From Candidatus Methanomethylicota archaeon (GTDB lineage: Archaea; Thermoproteota; Methanomethylicia; Methanomethylicales; Methanomethylicaceae), in contig JARXPF010000001.1 in assembly GCA_029887765.1 (NCBI GenBank), positions 416,750 through 480,749 on the forward strand: DNA of 64,000 bases. Reading direction: 5' to 3'. The notes under the pieces are model-generated. The model did no database searches and was not told the DNA's origin. It was given only the letters and a program-made list of their open reading frames with translations. Of this stretch, positions 53,905 to 62,280 are shown in pieces; position 1 is the first letter of the stretch; each line of letters opens with the position of its first letter. Both the position numbers and the translations under genes were made by a program.

Positions 53905-54873
53905 ATGAATAGTATATTATTCATAGCTTTAGGAGGAGGAGGGGATGTAATTTCAGCTGCAATGTTAGCATTAGCATTTCGTAGAATTGGTATAAAAACA
54001 AATATAGCAAGTATTGTATGGGAAAGATTTTCAATAGACCCAATCCCTGGACCTATAAGATTTAATGAAATTAAGAATGCTGAAAAAATAGGAGAATATT
54101 CAATGATAGTTTTTGAAAATACAAAAGCAATAAGAGGAGGAAAAGAAATATTATTTCAAGCAGTTAATGTTTCAAAAGCTATTAAAGAAGAAATAGGAAT
54201 TGTAGATATTAATAGTGGAGTAGAAGGGCTTGAAAAAGGTATTAAAGAGCTTGCTAAATTTTTAAAATGTAATAAAATAATAGGCGTAGATGTAGGTGGG
54301 GATATACTTTCAACTGGATTTGAAAAGAATTTATGGAGTCCTTTAGCTGATTTTTTAGGATTAGCAGCATTATCTAAACAAAATGGAATAATTGCAGTTC
54401 ACTCTCTTGGAAGTGATGGTGAACTTAATTTAAATTATTTATTAAAAAGAATAGCATTTATAACAAAAAAAGGAGGGTTTTTAGGAATAAGAGGAATGAA
54501 TAAATATGATATTGAAATTTTAGAAAGAATTTTAAATTATGCAGAAAGTGAAGCTAGTAGAGTTTCACTTATGGCATGGAAAGGTTTCTATGGATATTTA
54601 AAATTAAGAAATAATTCAAGAAAAACTTTTGTTACTCCTTTAAATACATTAACATTTTTTCTAAAATCAAAAATAGTTGCGAAATATAATCCAGTAATAA
54701 AAGAATTAATGAATACAAAAAGTTTAGAAGAGGCAAGAAAAGTATTAAATGAAAAAAATATTTTTACTGAATTAGATTTAGAAGAAGGATTATTTAAAAT
54801 GATTAATGATGGTAAGAGAATTACAAGTGAATTAATAAAAGAAATAAGAAATTCTTTTTTTAATAAATATTAA
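53905..54873 (+). CDS. DUF1152 family protein
   Basis: A 322-aa protein of the archaeal DUF1152 family. Features are SILFIALGGGGDVISAAMLA (Gly-rich nucleotide-like loop at the start), NKIIGVDVGGDILSTGFEKN and AVHSLGSDGELNLNYLLKR. Function is unknown; the fold is probably Rossmann-like. It lies between the AEP gene (divergent) and the ABC ATPase (convergent, 4-base overlap). Confidence 0.82.
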   Translation: MNSILFIALGGGGDVISAAMLALAFRRIGIKTNIASIVWERFSIDPIPGPIRFNEIKNAEKIGEYSMIVFENTKAIRGGKEILFQAVNVSKAIKEEIGIVDINSGVEGLEKGIKELAKFLKCNKIIGVDVGGDILSTGFEKNLWSPLADFLGLAALSKQNGIIAVHSLGSDGELNLNYLLKRIAFITKKGGFLGIRGMNKYDIEILERILNYAESEASRVSLMAWKGFYGYLKLRNNSRKTFVTPLNTLTFFLKSKIVAKYNPVIKELMNTKSLEEARKVLNEKNIFTELDLEEGLFKMINDGKRITSELIKEIRNSFFNKY

Positions 54874-55625
54874 ATTAATATCCTTTTTCTTCCATTGAAA
54901 TCTATTAAATCAACATCTATTCCATAAATTTGTTTAATTATATCTTTTGTTATTATTTCTTCAGGATGTCCACATTTTACAATTTTTCCATTATTCATTA
55001 TTGCAATTTCATCTGCATATTTAAGTGCAAGATTTATATCATGAAGGGCAATTATTGTTGATTTATTATTTTCATGAGTTATTTTTGTTATTAATTCTAA
55101 TACTTCATGTTGATATTTAATATCTAAATTTGCTGATAATTCATCAAGTAATATTACTTTAGTTTCTTGTGCAATTACTCTTGCAATATGTACTCTTTGT
55201 CTTTCTCCACCACTTAATTCATCAATATATCTATTTGAATATGATGATAAATTTAAATAATTAATTATATTTTCTACAATCTTATAATCTTGTTTAGAAG
55301 GCATTAAATCAAAAAATGGAAGTCTACCTAAGATTATACTATCAAATACAGTAATTGGAAAAATTATTGGCACATATTGTGGTAAATAAGCGATAATTTT
55401 TGCCCTTTCTCTTTCTGAAAGATTAGAAATATCTTTTCCATCAAATATTATTTTACCACTATTTGGTTTGATTATTCCTACAATACATTTTAATAAAGTA
55501 CTCTTTCCTGCACCATTAGGACCAATTAATGCTAAAACTTTTCCTTTATCAACTTTAAGAGATACATTATTAAGTGAAAAATTAGAATTATAACTAAAAC
55601 AAAGATTAATAACTTCTAAACTCAT
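54870..55625 (-). CDS. FecE/BtuD-type ABC transporter ATPase (second system)
   Basis: A 251-aa ATPase: Walker A ALIGPNGAGKSTLLKC, signature LSGGERQRVHIARVIAQE, Walker B VILLDELSANLDIKYQ and H-loop IIALHDINLA. Walker B has Glu-Leu-Ser in place of the usual Glu-Pro-x. It is coupled to the permease by a 4-base overlap. This is a second FecCD-type importer besides btuFCD. Cobalamin or iron chelate are both possible; no linked biosynthesis gene decides. Confidence 0.87.
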   Translation of the reverse strand: MSLEVINLCFSYNSNFSLNNVSLKVDKGKVLALIGPNGAGKSTLLKCIVGIIKPNSGKIIFDGKDISNLSERERAKIIAYLPQYVPIIFPITVFDSIILGRLPFFDLMPSKQDYKIVENIINYLNLSSYSNRYIDELSGGERQRVHIARVIAQETKVILLDELSANLDIKYQHEVLELITKITHENNKSTIIALHDINLALKYADEIAIMNNGKIVKCGHPEEIITKDIIKQIYGIDVDLIDFNGRKRILI

Positions 55626-56695
55626 GAGAAATAACTCCTCCTACTTTTGAGCAATAAGTATATAAAAAAAGGACCGCCAATACATGAAGTAATTGCGCCA
55701 ATAGGCAATATAAAAGGAGACATTATTGTTCTAGCTATGGTATCTGCTATTAAGAGTAAAATTGCTCCAATAAGTGAAGAAGTAATTATAAGATATTCAT
55801 TATTATTACCAACAATCATTCTAGCAATATGTGGAGAAATTAAACATATGAAACTTATAACTCCTACAAAAGAAATTGTTATTGAAGTCATAAAACTTAC
55901 AATTAAAATACATAACATTCTTAATTTCTTAATATTAACACCAAGACTAATAGCAGTATCATCACCTAAATTTAAGGCATTAAGCTTCCAGCTTATAGTT
56001 AATAAAAATGGTATTGTAATTAAAGCTAAAGACATTAAGGGTAAATTTTTCCAACTTGATCTTCCAAGATCTCCAAGAAGCCACATTATCACTGCTTTTA
56101 ATGCTTCAGCTTGACTGAAATATTGTAGAATTGATGTACCAGCACTAAAAAAGTATCCTATAGCAACACCAGCTAGTATAATCGTTGTTGGATTAAAACC
56201 CTTAATTTTAGCTAGGAAAGAAACTATTAGTGCACATAATATACAAAAAATAAAAGCATTTGATATTACTAATAATTCATTAGTGATAATATAGGTATAT
56301 CCTCCTGAATAAGTCAATACTCCTGCACCAAGTATTATTGCTAAAGAAGCTCCAAAACCTGCAGCTGAAGACAGACCCATGGTAAATGGAGAGGCTAAGG
56401 GATTTCTGAGAATTGCTTGACAAATAGCACCTCCTGCAGATAAGGCAGAACCAACAATTATTGCACCAAATAAACGTGGTAAGCGAAGATTCCAAATAAT
56501 ATATTCTGAAGATGGATCCGATTTAATGTAAAATGGAAAAAATTTGGAAAAAATAATTTGATAAACTTCTATAAAACTTAAATTAACTGATCCAAAACAA
56601 GCAGCAATTCCAATTAAAATTATGAGAACAATAAATAATAAAAAAATAAAAAATATCTTACTTTTTTGAGAATTTTTTACCAAGGATACCACCAA
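55622..56695 (-). CDS. FecCD-type ABC transporter permease (second system)
   Basis: A 357-aa permease with nine to ten helices: IIWNLRLPRLFGAIIVGSAL, ILRNPLASPFTMGLSSAAGFG, the coupling-helix LGDDTAISLGVNIKKL and FVGVISFICLISPHIARMIVG. Related to BtuC at 25758-26771 but clearly divergent. It overlaps the binding-protein gene by 19 bases. Confidence 0.9.
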   Translation of the reverse strand: MVVSLVKNSQKSKIFFIFLLFIVLIILIGIAACFGSVNLSFIEVYQIIFSKFFPFYIKSDPSSEYIIWNLRLPRLFGAIIVGSALSAGGAICQAILRNPLASPFTMGLSSAAGFGASLAIILGAGVLTYSGGYTYIITNELLVISNAFIFCILCALIVSFLAKIKGFNPTTIILAGVAIGYFFSAGTSILQYFSQAEALKAVIMWLLGDLGRSSWKNLPLMSLALITIPFLLTISWKLNALNLGDDTAISLGVNIKKLRMLCILIVSFMTSITISFVGVISFICLISPHIARMIVGNNNEYLIITSSLIGAILLLIADTIARTIMSPFILPIGAITSCIGGPFFIYLLLKSRRSYFS

Positions 56696-57744
56696 ATTCC
56701 TTTAAGTTCTAATCCTAGAAATGATAAGTACTGTTGTAATAATACCTTTGGATCTAAATCATTAAATAAAGAGGGATAAGCAGATTTTGCAATACAAAGT
56801 ACTGCTATTGGGTATGATGGATTATAAGCCAATCTACCTGGTAGAATAATTATCCTATTATTCTTAACAGCATTAGTGATATTTAATCTATTTATTACAT
56901 CAGATTTTACTATTTCATAATCTTCAATAGTGGCATCTATTGGATTTACAATTACAGGTTTTACAATAAAGTCTGGATTTTGTTTAATAACCCATTCAGC
57001 ACTCACTTTTGGATATGGTATTGTAAACTCACCTATTGGTTTTAAACCTGCTTTAATTGCAAGATCATATAATCCACTTCCAGGTCCTGCAACAGACCAT
57101 GAAGTATATGTTTCTAAATAAGACCTTATTTTATCTTCTTCTTTAATTTTACTTAATCTATCACTAATTAATTTTTCTAAGTCGTTTATCCATTTACAGA
57201 TTTTCTCAGCTTCTTTTTCCTTACCTAGTAGAATGCCTAAAATCTTTAATTCCTGAGTCATTGTTGATGGAATATATAAATCAAGTCTTACTACTTTTAT
57301 TCCCATAGGTTCAAGTTTTTCTTCAAGTTCAGATCCTGGCCATCTTGTATAAGAAATTACAACTTCTGGCTTTAATTTTACTATAGTCTCATAATCAGGA
57401 CTTTGCCATTTACCTACATTTGTTAAATTAGAAAGTTCTTTAAATAGAGTTGGATATTTAGCTACTACATCAGAAACTCCAACAATAGCATTAGAAGCAT
57501 TAAGAAGTTTTATTGCAATTGCAGCATCACTAGTTAAGACAACAATTCTTTTGACTGGAACATTAAGAGTAATGTATTTACCAGATGAGTCAATTATTGT
57601 CATATTACTTGTTTGTATACTTTGATTAATAGGAGTAGAGTATAGATTAGCAATCATATAACCTATGGAGAAGAATATTAGGGCAATCATGGCAATTGCT
57701 ATAATTGTCCAAGTTTTTGTTAAAGCCTTATTATTAAATAACAT
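56677..57744 (-). CDS. Substrate-binding protein of second FecCD-type importer
   Basis: A 355-aa protein with an N-terminal membrane anchor (WTIIAIAMIALIFFSIGYMI, about residues 11-30) and the class III binding-protein fold (KRIVVLTSDAAIAIKLLNAS, VGKWQSPDYETIVKLKPEVV, AEWVIKQNPDFIVKP). There is no lipobox Cys. GGAGGGAT lies about 6 bases upstream of the start. A 14-base palindrome stands about 60 bases upstream and may control this operon. The substrate is an iron chelate, corrinoid or similar. Confidence 0.87.
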   Translation of the reverse strand: MLFNNKALTKTWTIIAIAMIALIFFSIGYMIANLYSTPINQSIQTSNMTIIDSSGKYITLNVPVKRIVVLTSDAAIAIKLLNASNAIVGVSDVVAKYPTLFKELSNLTNVGKWQSPDYETIVKLKPEVVISYTRWPGSELEEKLEPMGIKVVRLDLYIPSTMTQELKILGILLGKEKEAEKICKWINDLEKLISDRLSKIKEEDKIRSYLETYTSWSVAGPGSGLYDLAIKAGLKPIGEFTIPYPKVSAEWVIKQNPDFIVKPVIVNPIDATIEDYEIVKSDVINRLNITNAVKNNRIIILPGRLAYNPSYPIAVLCIAKSAYPSLFNDLDPKVLLQQYLSFLGLELKGIWWYPW

Positions 57745-58319: not shown

Positions 58320-59351
58320 TTGCTCTTCTTTATTATTACAACAGGTGCATGTAATTTAAAATGTAAATATTGTGGAGGAAGTTTGCCAGAAAAATATGTG
58401 CCTTATAAAATAAAATATAAAATAAATCAATTGAAAGATTTTATTGAAGAAGATAAAGAAGCCATAATAGCGTTTTATGGAGGAGAGCCTCTTATAAATT
58501 ATGAATTTATTAAGGAAGTAATGAATAAAGTAGAGGCAAAAAAATTTGTAATTCAAACTAATGCTCTACTTTATAAAAAATTAAGTATAGAATATTGGAA
58601 AAAATTTGATGCAATTCTTCTCTCTATAGATGGAAGAAAAGAAATTACAGATTATTATAGAGGTTACGGTGTTTATAATAAAGTTATTGAAGTTGCAAAT
58701 TGGTTAAGAATGAATGAATATAATGGTGACTTAATAGCAAGAATGACAGTATCTGAAAAAACTAGCATATATGATGATGTCATGCATTTATTAAATCTAA
58801 ATATTTTTGATCATATACATTGGCAACTTGATGTAGGATGGAGTGAATTATGGAAAAATTTTGATAATTGGTGTGAAAATAATTATAAACCAGGAATAAA
58901 AGCTCTTGTAGAATATTGGATTAATGAAATAAAAAATGAGATCGTACCAGGAATTGCTCCTTTTCTTGGAATATTAAAGAGATTATTGTATGGTGGAACA
59001 AATCCTCCATGTGGTGCTGGAGTAGATGCTTTTGCAATTTTTCCAAATGGAAAGATATTGGCATGCCCAATTGCTTATGATGTAAAATGGGCAATTGTTG
59101 GAGAATTATCAAATAGTCCATTTGAATTAAAAAGAATTAAGATAGATTGTGAAAATTGCAATTATTTTAAAGTTTGTGGAGGAAGATGTTTATATATTAA
59201 TAAAGAAGGCTTATGGAAGGGAAAAATGAAAGAAATTTGTAATTTAACAATATTTACAATAAATTTAATTAAGAAGAATATTAATTATATAAAAAATCCT
59301 GATAAAATAATTTATCCAAAATTTAATAATTCAATAGAAATAATACCTTAG
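58320..59351 (+). CDS. AF1577-type peptide-modifying radical SAM protein
   Basis: A 343-aa radical SAM enzyme. The 4Fe-4S/SAM motif is GACNLKCKYCGG (Cys 11, 15 and 18), with AFYGGEPLINYEF next and LLSIDGRKEITDYYRGYG later. The C-terminal SPASM-like part has many Cys (NPPCGAGVD, ILACPIAY, DCENCNYFKVCGGRC, EICNLT) for extra clusters. I recognise the AF1577-type family, suggested to modify peptides. TTG 58320 is the start: GGTGA stands 4 bases upstream, and ATG 58310 is out of frame. The substrate is unknown; see the nearby 60500 and 59729 features. Confidence 0.82.
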   Translation: MLFFIITTGACNLKCKYCGGSLPEKYVPYKIKYKINQLKDFIEEDKEAIIAFYGGEPLINYEFIKEVMNKVEAKKFVIQTNALLYKKLSIEYWKKFDAILLSIDGRKEITDYYRGYGVYNKVIEVANWLRMNEYNGDLIARMTVSEKTSIYDDVMHLLNLNIFDHIHWQLDVGWSELWKNFDNWCENNYKPGIKALVEYWINEIKNEIVPGIAPFLGILKRLLYGGTNPPCGAGVDAFAIFPNGKILACPIAYDVKWAIVGELSNSPFELKRIKIDCENCNYFKVCGGRCLYINKEGLWKGKMKEICNLTIFTINLIKKNINYIKNPDKIIYPKFNNSIEIIP

Positions 59352-59353
59352 CA

Positions 59354-59691
59354 CTATCTTATCATAATTCTAATAATTGTAATTAAAAGTGTAATAGCGA
59401 TTATCATTATAATAGCAATTAAATTTAATACTTCTAAACCTAAAATTGTACTCATTAATAAAAAGCCCAAAAAATAACCTATGGTATAAACAAAACCCCA
59501 ATGTCTTGCAATTTCTATAATTGTAATAGCTAATAATAATATTATTAATTACAAATAAGTATATCAAAAGAACTGTATATATATGGTGGATTTCTCAAAA
59601 CAATAGCTCCTGCGGTTTCAAGTGGAATAGATAATGCAAAACCAAGTAATGCATCATTTATTGCTTCTAATAAATTAATAGTCTTATTCAT
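59354..59691 (-). pseudogene. Frameshifted small membrane protein
   Basis: The ATG-started reading MNKTINLLEAINDALLGFAL.. continues to ..SSFDILICN and stops. In another frame, after a TAATAATATTATTATTA repeat at about 59541-59552, the sequence continues as hydrophobic helices (ILLLAITIIEIARHWGFVYT, IGYFLGFLLMSTILGLEV, LIAIIMIIAITLLITIIRI) to a TAG at 59354. Joined, it would be a protein of about 112 residues with three membrane helices. The slip sits in the microsatellite-like run. Function unknown; it lies directly after the radical SAM gene, convergent. Confidence 0.55.
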
Positions 59692-59728
59692 TAAATAAAA
59701 ATATTTTCTCAATCAATTATAAATTATT

Positions 59729-60443
59729 TTACCATACAATTATAAATCTAATAACAGTATCATTAAAGTTTATTACATATTTTGATCTATCAAAAAAAGG
59801 TTGGTCAATTTTTAAATCAACAATACTATCATCTTGAGGTTCTATGAAAATTAATCCTTTATCAGTAGTATTAAAACAAACAATCGCATGTCCACCTTGT
59901 GGAAAGAATATTAAGACAAAACCACATTTATAACCCTTATTAAAAGCATTGTTTTTAACATCCTTAGCAAAATCTACACATTCATATTTTCCTTGAATAT
60001 ATTCATTTTTATCAGTTTGATCCATAGCTATAAATTCCATTACTTCTTCATATGTAGGATCTCTTATTGTGTAACCCCTTCCTGCTCCATCAATTACTCC
60101 TTTTTTATAACCAAGAAAATAACCTTCATTAAAATCTAAAGAATAGCCACTACTATTACCAAATAAATAACCTTCTTCATAACCAATTCTTTTCCCATCA
60201 TCAAATCCTATTAAAGTAACCACTAATATTTCCATTAAAATAACCTTCATTATAGCCAATTTCTTTTCCATAATTAAAACCAATAATGTATCCAGTTTCA
60301 TTTCCAATTATAAACCCATGAATATAACCTGAATAATTCCCATTCTTATATCCTTCCTGAAATCCTTGTGAAAATCCAATATTTAATCCTATAATAAACA
60401 TAATAAAAATAATTATTACTATAAAAACTGTGTGATATTTCAT
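59729..60443 (-). pseudogene. Frameshifted GX3-repeat protein with Cys/His (transglutaminase-like) domain
   Basis: The N-terminal part (from ATG 60443) has a membrane helix (FIVIIIFIMFIIG) then Gly every fourth residue (GFSQGFQEGYKNGNYSGYIH..). It stops at 60201. Removing one base of the AA at 60211-60212 joins it to GFDDGKRIGYEEGYLFGNSS.. without disturbing the four-residue period, giving 27 tetrads, 26 with Gly. A globular domain follows (GYTIRDPTYEEVMEFIAMDQ, KYECVDFAKDV with Cys, QGGHAIVCFNTTDKG with His, IFIEPQDD), probably of transglutaminase/papain-like fold. The helix predicts an extracellular protein. It is similar to GY-rich proteins I recall from methanogens. Inactive unless the base is a sequence error. 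Confidence 0.7.
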
Positions 60444-60831: not shown

Positions 60832-61711
60832 TTATTCCTCCAGACTGCTTTCCCTTTACCATTGAAAATACACCATTTGGGCATCTTTTTATACACTCAT
60901 AACAATTTATGCAAAGTGTTCTTGCTATTGACTTATTATCATCATCTATAGCCCACATAGGACATACTTCAATGCATTTATTACAATTATTACATTTCTT
61001 ATTTGTTCTAATTGTTCTATAAAATCCAAGTCTAGCACCAATACTATGAACAAGACCTGAGACAGCTCCAAGTGGACAGAATAGTATACACCATCCTCTT
61101 CCACCAATAGTAAAAATACCTCCTATAATAAGCCAAAATATTAATACTATTAATGAACCGCTATGCCAATAGACTAATTCTCCAAGTAAAAATTTAATAA
61201 TATCATCTTGAAGTACTGAAACTGCACAATATCTACAACAAATACTACTAACACCAGCATATCCTAGACCAATCAATAGCGACACTATAATCCATCCAGT
61301 TAAAAAGCCATACCTCAAACTTTTTGTAATATTAGTATCCTTTATTTGAATTCTAAATCTATTTGGTAAAGGTATTATTCTACTTAATGCTTCACTTATT
61401 GATCCTATTGGACATATCCATCCACAGAATAATGGACCAAAAAATAATGCAACAATAATTGCAATAATTATTGTTCCGAACATTACTGGATATTGGAATA
61501 TATAGAAAAATCTTCCAGAGAATATCCAGTCGAAAGGCATTCTAAAACAAATTGAATGTAAATCAGGTTCAGCTATATTGCCAATTAAAAAGTAAATTAA
61601 TCTAGTAAGTAGTGCAAATGGTGCTACAAACATTACAAATCCAATAATCCAACAAATGTATCTCCATTTATTTAGAGTTATTTTATTAAAAATCGTTTTT
61701 ATCCACAACAA
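60806..61711 (-). CDS. NapH/CcoG-like membrane polyferredoxin
   Basis: A 301-aa membrane iron-sulfur protein with about five helices. Two membrane-edge Cys motifs (FCGWICPIGSISE and WCILFCPLGAVSG) are followed at the C-terminus by two ferredoxin clusters (KCNNCNKCIEVCPMW and LCINCYECIKRCPNG). It resembles NapH/NosR-type electron-transfer proteins that move electrons from quinol or ferredoxin to an extracytoplasmic enzyme. The secreted partner at 61699 and the small Cys protein at 60601 flank it with overlaps. No nitrate or nitrous oxide reductase is present. Confidence 0.83.
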   Translation of the reverse strand: MLWIKTIFNKITLNKWRYICWIIGFVMFVAPFALLTRLIYFLIGNIAEPDLHSICFRMPFDWIFSGRFFYIFQYPVMFGTIIIAIIVALFFGPLFCGWICPIGSISEALSRIIPLPNRFRIQIKDTNITKSLRYGFLTGWIIVSLLIGLGYAGVSSICCRYCAVSVLQDDIIKFLLGELVYWHSGSLIVLIFWLIIGGIFTIGGRGWCILFCPLGAVSGLVHSIGARLGFYRTIRTNKKCNNCNKCIEVCPMWAIDDDNKSIARTLCINCYECIKRCPNGVFSMVKGKQSGGINDNAIKNT

Positions 61712-62280
61712 GATCCACCTCCTGAAGATAATAATCCTCTAACGATTTTTATTGGAATAAACGTCAAAGATTCGCCTGTATCGGCATCATAAACAAGTAA
61801 TCCGCCATCATAGATTACTTTTTCATTCATGAGGTAATCTGGAATAATGAAATACCAATCTATACTAAGATTTGGTATTCTACCTCCTGGAGGTATTGGC
61901 TCTAAAAATATGTGCTTACTAGCATCGTATGGCCAATTTGCCTTTACTTCCCACTCTATAGGAATATTAGCATTTATGAGTTTTAAACCAATTTTAAGTG
62001 GTTTTCTTCCAACATTATAAATCCAATGAGTAGATATAGCTTCTACATTTGGCTGGATTAATTTTTTAAGTATTCCTCTTTCATCCAAATCTATTATTAA
62101 AGGAGCCATTCTTATTGGTGGACCGGCGCCATAAATAGTAATAGGTTTTGTAATATTACCAGCAGGAATTGCTATCCAAAAATGAACTATCTCTGAGTCC
62201 CTAACTTCAGCGGCATATACACTAGCATATAGCGTAAAAAGCATCGCTATTACAAATCCTGTTAAATATTTGATCTTCAT
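61699..62280 (-). CDS. Secreted protein with GGGSCCG tail
   Basis: A 193-aa exported protein. The signal peptide MKIKYLTGFVIAMLFTLYAS ends near SVYAAE. The mature part is beta-rich, Pro/Ile-rich (IVHFWIAIPAGNITKPITIY, STHWIYNVGRKPLKIGLKL, HIFLEPIPPGGRIPNLSIDW) and ends SSGGGSCCG, a Cys pair that could bind metal or anchor. It overlaps the polyferredoxin gene by 13 bases and is probably its outer-side partner, for example a metal or electron acceptor. Family unknown to me. Confidence 0.65.
   Translation of the reverse strand: MKIKYLTGFVIAMLFTLYASVYAAEVRDSEIVHFWIAIPAGNITKPITIYGAGPPIRMAPLIIDLDERGILKKLIQPNVEAISTHWIYNVGRKPLKIGLKLINANIPIEWEVKANWPYDASKHIFLEPIPPGGRIPNLSIDWYFIIPDYLMNEKVIYDGGLLVYDADTGESLTFIPIKIVRGLLSSGGGSCCG

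Follow-up and report, generated by a model that had tools for sequence, protein, structure and literature searches.

A frame-disrupted archaeal gene linking a predicted membrane anchor, a long GX3 glycine array and a putative papain-like domain of MOA/PSL1a type

The window, the whole 64,000-nucleotide stretch of DNA analyzed here, comes from an archaeal genome of 1.17 Mb in 7 contigs, whose same-genus neighbor is a Candidatus Methanomethyliaceae MAG. On its minus strand the window carries a gene that encodes, in order, a predicted N-terminal transmembrane helix, a long array of GX3 tetrads (Gly-x1-x2-x3) and a domain with conserved Cys, His and Glu residues, and that is interrupted by a single frame change (Table 1). 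In the first part of the array, Gly codons occupy 15 of 15 positions at 12-nt steps, with codon starts from 60389 to 60221 in frame 0. The Gly codon at 60208 follows after 13 nt instead of 12, and from there to 60076 glycine recurs at 11 of 12 steps, the sole miss being an Asp codon at 60136. Overall, 26 of 27 successive fourth positions between 60389 and 60065 are glycine; an earlier note on this DNA had counted 27 tetrads, and its period is real, with one tetrad substituted. The in-phase clustering of glycine has P = 4e-22 by exact permutation, and a 7-Gly DNA pattern gave 9 matches, against 0 expected from shuffled sequence.

Table 1. Coordinates of the stalk gene, its parts and the gene just downstream (window positions)
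Feature	Position	Strand	Basis or remark
Whole frame-disrupted gene: anchor, GX3 stalk and Cys-His-Glu domain	59729..60443	-	Translation; colinear with intact L001:4824-5456
Predicted N-terminal transmembrane helix, residues about 5-20, N-in	60384..60431	-	Sequence FIVIIIFIMFIIG
GX3 array part 1, 15 tetrads, frame 0	60210..60389	-	
Frame-change interval, 13 nt Gly-to-Gly	60209..60221	-	
GX3 array part 2, 12 tetrads, frame 1	60065..60208	-	Asp at 60136-60134
Potential sequon 1, GNYS tetrad	60330..60341	-	Gly residue 35 of frame-0 ORF
Potential sequon 2, GNET tetrad	60294..60305	-	Gly residue 47 of frame-0 ORF
Potential sequon 3, GNIS tetrad	60222..60233	-	Gly residue 71 of frame-0 ORF
Potential sequon 4, GNSS tetrad	60149..60160	-	
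Predicted papain-like (MOA-type) domain; Cys 59980-59978, His 59890-59888, Glu 59842-59840, Gln 59836-59834	59732..60064	-	Conservation and predicted fold
Small membrane-protein gene, split over two frames	59370..59712	-	Intact, 118 aa, in L001:5515-5871

Our analyses revealed intact relatives of the same architecture. The same-genus ortholog (L001) is a 210-aa protein in one open frame with 20 tetrads, and members from other genera carry about 23-25 (L005-L007), 32 (L012), 12 (L014) and 15 (L019). Since the same-genus ortholog and others in the phylum hold the array in a single open frame, the period-preserving frame is the ancestral one, as the earlier note had proposed. The GX3 array is thus a family trait, neither chance nor a local oddity. 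The catalytic domain is present in 27 of 398 genomes of the phylum. In the remaining relatives the array is shortened or swapped for a coiled coil or short linker, still placed after a membrane helix, and the stalk ranges from 0 to 32 tetrads. On the catalytic-domain tree the GX3 label changes 4 times by parsimony, at least 2 of these changes being forced by well supported branches. The proposed membrane anchor was borne out: in addition to the helix predicted in the window, a 19-residue span with a hydropathy of 2.0 or more lies near the N terminus of 23 of 23 complete relatives. The N-in orientation predicted for this helix would place the array outside the cell, in line with what had been suggested from the letters of the DNA.

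We considered and rejected the possibility that GX3 arrays are a general genome trait: across 151 genomes, runs of at least 12 tetrads outside the family were, among the matches listed, low-complexity Gly repeats or a microsatellite. The microsatellite (G019:C29:11-168) lies at a contig end and repeats the purine unit GGAAGAAGAAGA. The plasmid and phage collections searched gave no match. Viral relatives of the domain have coiled-coil or other N termini; contigs L126-L134, all viral, also code for the Cys-His-Glu domain, which in several cases is joined to a coiled-coil stalk behind a membrane helix.

A 24-residue super-repeat of six tetrads had also been described, and it persists as a weak local feature of the window copy: a lag of 6 tetrads has P = 0.003 (0.04 when corrected over 12 lags), and the DNA identity of the array is 0.50 at lag 72, compared with about 0.43 at lags 60 and 84. 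The 24-residue period is absent from the L001, L005 and L012 arrays, and we therefore rejected it as a family feature. Its GN.. element does recur, as a phased N-glycosylation sequon, GN-x-[S/T], and not as part of a super-repeat. Of the 24 tetrads in which x1 is Asn, 23 have Ser or Thr at x3, compared with 19 of 151 other tetrads (Fisher test, 3e-16; 5e-11 using five lineages only). With the glycines held in place, the GX3 stalks contain 22 sequons against 5.6 expected, and the coiled-coil stalks of relatives contain 31 against 14.8; per 100 aa, sequon density falls from 2.4-2.9 in the stalks to 0.73 in the catalytic domain. The genome encodes an STT3 oligosaccharyltransferase (E 8e-38). As in archaeal N-glycoproteins, N-X-S/T sequons on the predicted outer side thus coincide with an oligosaccharyltransferase in the genome, the sites being potential ones. 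From the phasing and excess of sequons in both stalk types, their low density in the catalytic domain and the presence of STT3, we read the excess as a probable sign that N-glycosylation is selected for in stalks of either type.

The C-terminal domain had been described as a Cys/His domain of transglutaminase/papain fold. The Cys, His, Glu and Gln of C..HA..EPQ (C128, H158, E174 and Q176 in L001) are almost invariant, being kept in most alignment rows, and two AlphaFold models give the catalytic domain pLDDT values mostly above 90. For both models the first Foldseek matches were MOA/PSL1a (E 3e-5 and 2e-4, probability 1.00), and the best-ranking solved structures were all MOA/PSL1a proteases. 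In MOA the oxyanion residue is Trp208. The papain fold and the Cys/His pair are therefore confirmed at the level of prediction, the closest known domain being the MOA/PSL1a protease and not a transglutaminase. MOA uses Cys215-His257-Glu274 together with Gln276 (PMC8244254), and by sequence the putative catalytic residues here follow the same order, with the Glu-x-Gln common to both and a His-Glu spacing of 16 versus 17. The resemblance to MOA/PSL1a (PMC8244254, PMC4764322; PF18021) thus covers fold, Cys-His-Glu and Glu-x-Gln, whereas the fungal domain is joined to a lectin; MOA and PSL1a carry a binuclear Ca/Mn site (PMC8244254, PMC4764322). The window domain did not reach the PF18021 (Agglutinin_C) cut-off (12.3 bits vs. 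26.8), with a sub-threshold alignment that spans its whole motif region, and a PF18021 search of the window genome and of G002 returned no match. The fold matches also included a viral structure prediction with the name Agglutinin C-terminal. In an archaeal protein above the Agglutinin_C cut-off (L095), the profile match aligns C, HA and EPQ. That locus (L095:1417-1875, minus strand) may have a virus-like context or be a contaminant, its bin having 9% contamination.

By best fold match we predict that the domain is a papain-like protease of MOA/PSL1a type. It might instead be a transglutaminase-like cross-linker or an inactive binding domain, which we judge unlikely while granting it appreciable weight. 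The papain fold and Cys-His-acid triads are common to both classes, a viral entry among the fold matches bears the name transglutaminase, and the distant members L032 and L058 have Asp where others have Glu, Asp being the third catalytic residue of classical transglutaminase-like proteins. However, the transglutaminase core model PF01841 had no match to the catalytic domain alone at E values up to 10, the best solved-structure matches to both models are all MOA/PSL1a proteases, Glu-x-Gln and the near-invariant Cys-His-Glu are kept, and the domain is under purifying selection.

The catalytic domain of the window copy has a dN/dS of 0.086 relative to L001, like that of intact neighboring genes (0.07-0.18), indicating either that loss was very recent or that the break is an error. 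The gene probably specifies a surface cysteine protease of Methanomethylicia and relatives in the phylum, anchored in the membrane, glycosylated and carried on a stalk, the window copy being either recently broken or locally mis-sequenced. That the living gene is intact and the frame change a sequencing or assembly error is a serious contender, to which we give a little under an even chance. Besides the dN/dS value, the frame after the break is open for 159 codons with no stops, and both breaks, that in the stalk gene and that in the gene just downstream, lie within 700 bp, the second in AT-rich simple sequence. Yet candidate frame changes affect about 4 of 122 orthologs compared, two of them being these genes, which argues against an assembly generally rich in indels; the break site has no long homopolymer, and orthologs in G018 and G066 are broken too. 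Programmed ribosomal frameshifting could also account for a downstream frame that is open and under purifying selection, but we consider it very improbable: in intact relatives a single frame spans the array, the site lacks conservation, we recognized no known slippery motif, and the neighboring gene is also broken.

In the G018 ortholog (L008), TGA occurs in frame twice: within the array, and precisely at the position of the catalytic Cys codon. Because neighboring G018 genes stop at TGA, we took these as nonsense changes and rejected TGA recoding. In G066, a long-array ortholog is split over three frames (L057:6516-7200). In total, breaks affect 3 of 10 long-array genes and were seen in none of about 16 short-stalk or coiled-coil genes; within the limits of these small numbers and of MAG quality, the gene looks dispensable in places, which matches its patchy spread. 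Unusual synonymous conservation in the array was also rejected: dS appeared low, but the higher codon identity (0.76 vs. 0.60) was limited to one half and did not recur in other pairs.

Structure prediction of the array, proposed in the earlier note, gave a helix in both AlphaFold models, but at low confidence (pLDDT about 31-61, single chain); with single-chain values this low, we do not take the array structure as predicted. The low confidence makes disorder the main rival to a helical stalk: the array would be a flexible, glycosylated linker, soluble and extended, with neither helix nor zipper. Its glycine content points the same way, since glycine, which makes up 25% here, forms helices poorly and counts against a helical stalk; in addition, the predicted helix is interrupted near the sequon tetrads, and stalk length is free to vary. 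We nevertheless find disorder improbable, if well short of negligible. The period of 4 is strict, the register hardly ever slipping across 20-32 tetrads, and flexible linkers have no need of a fixed period. At x1, roughly two thirds of the tetrads (96 of 143) have Tyr or Phe, which gives the sequence pattern of a YG zipper, GxxxGxxxG with interdigitated Tyr. Coiled coils take the place of the array at the same position, and FliH, Yae1/Lto1 and SMN use the same Gly spacing; helix pairing has been demonstrated for SMN (PMC8287954), and Lto1 binds its partner through GX3 (PMC4523923). Some relatives have a short linker or a coiled coil rich in sequons where the array would be, and for this reason we favor a helical extracellular stalk.

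The systems that share this spacing each differ from the family described here. FliH/YscL (PMC2674601) has long runs of glycine at every fourth position, predicted to be helical and variable in length, with Tyr or Phe at x1 in >45% of tetrads, but it is cytoplasmic, reaches at most 10-12 repeats, is rich in Glu, Gln and Ala at x3, and is without sequon phasing, membrane anchor or papain fold; its long GX3 runs were described as extremely rare and as lacking a structural explanation (PMC2674601). In Yae1/Lto1 (PMC4523923) the deca-GX3 runs are required for association of the two proteins, which are cytosolic Rli1 adaptors of ten tetrads with no anchor or catalytic domain; here, up to 32 tetrads follow a membrane helix and precede another domain. 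The resemblance to Yae1 remarked on earlier is therefore one of GX3 composition, without membership. Yae1_N matches L001 above its cut-off (30.1 bits vs. 27.5) and FliH models match weakly (22-30 bits vs. cut-offs of 180-293, short of the FliH equivalog), yet the matches are confined to the GX3 repeats and neither family has a membrane anchor or protease-type domain; that this is a Yae1-like or FliH-like protein is hardly credible. The YG zipper of SMN (PMC8287954), a solved helix dimer with interdigitated GxxxGxxxG and Tyr in which glycines lie face-to-face, is eukaryotic and has three glycines only. Sulfolobus SlaB (PMC10903991) is likewise a membrane-anchored, N-glycosylated, extracellular helical stalk in an archaeal envelope, but it is an ordinary trimeric coiled coil that anchors the S-layer and is not an enzyme.

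By analogy with these proteins, we infer that the GX3 array may form a parallel helical oligomer; the papain domain of MOA is itself a dimerization domain (PMC8244254). If helical, the stalk would measure up to about 16 nm in the window copy and 7-19 nm in members with 12-32 tetrads, of the order of archaeal envelope spacings; the Sulfolobus S-layer assembly is about 35 nm thick (PMC10903991). In our model the N-terminal helix would anchor the protein with the remainder outside the cell, the GX3 helices would pack glycine face to glycine face with Tyr/Phe filling the groove (a YG zipper), and the resulting rod, N-glycosylated at its GN-x-S/T tetrads, would hold the MOA/PSL1a-type domain off the membrane, where it might cleave, or less likely cross-link, surface or incoming proteins. 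We tentatively propose, as a possibility that does not quite reach even likelihood, that archaea use the array as an alternative to the coiled coil, in the form of a glycosylated, right-handed, extracellular glycine-zipper rod of 12-19 nm, swapped with coiled coils in one enzyme family and far longer than any known GX3 helix pair. GX3 zippers and MOA-type proteases are already known; we found no description in the literature of the stalk/protease combination, the array length or the sequon phasing. Because one domain family has either a GX3 array or an ordinary coiled coil at the same site, the helical-stalk question is directly testable with built-in controls. The data also suggest that the MOA-type protease domain, known from mushroom defense lectins, is present on archaeal surfaces and in viral contigs.

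The neighboring genes are conserved within the genus only, and no conserved gene neighborhood pointing to a substrate was found. Adjoining the stalk gene, at 58320-59351 (plus strand), lies a gene for a radical SAM/SPASM protein of the TIGR04084 family, a possible peptide-modifying enzyme, whose place beside the stalk gene is not conserved outside the genus. At 61699-62280 (minus strand), beside a NapH-like ferredoxin gene, is a gene for a secreted-looking 193-aa protein with no family match that ends in GGGSCCG; this pair is kept in L001. As operon partners, the radical SAM protein and the NapH-like ferredoxin were rejected on the basis of this genus-only conservation. In G020, the gene of a coiled-coil member (L059:5075-5899) is immediately followed downstream by an operon for ABC uptake (Peripla_BP_2, permease and ATPase), which is orthologous to window positions 54870-57744.
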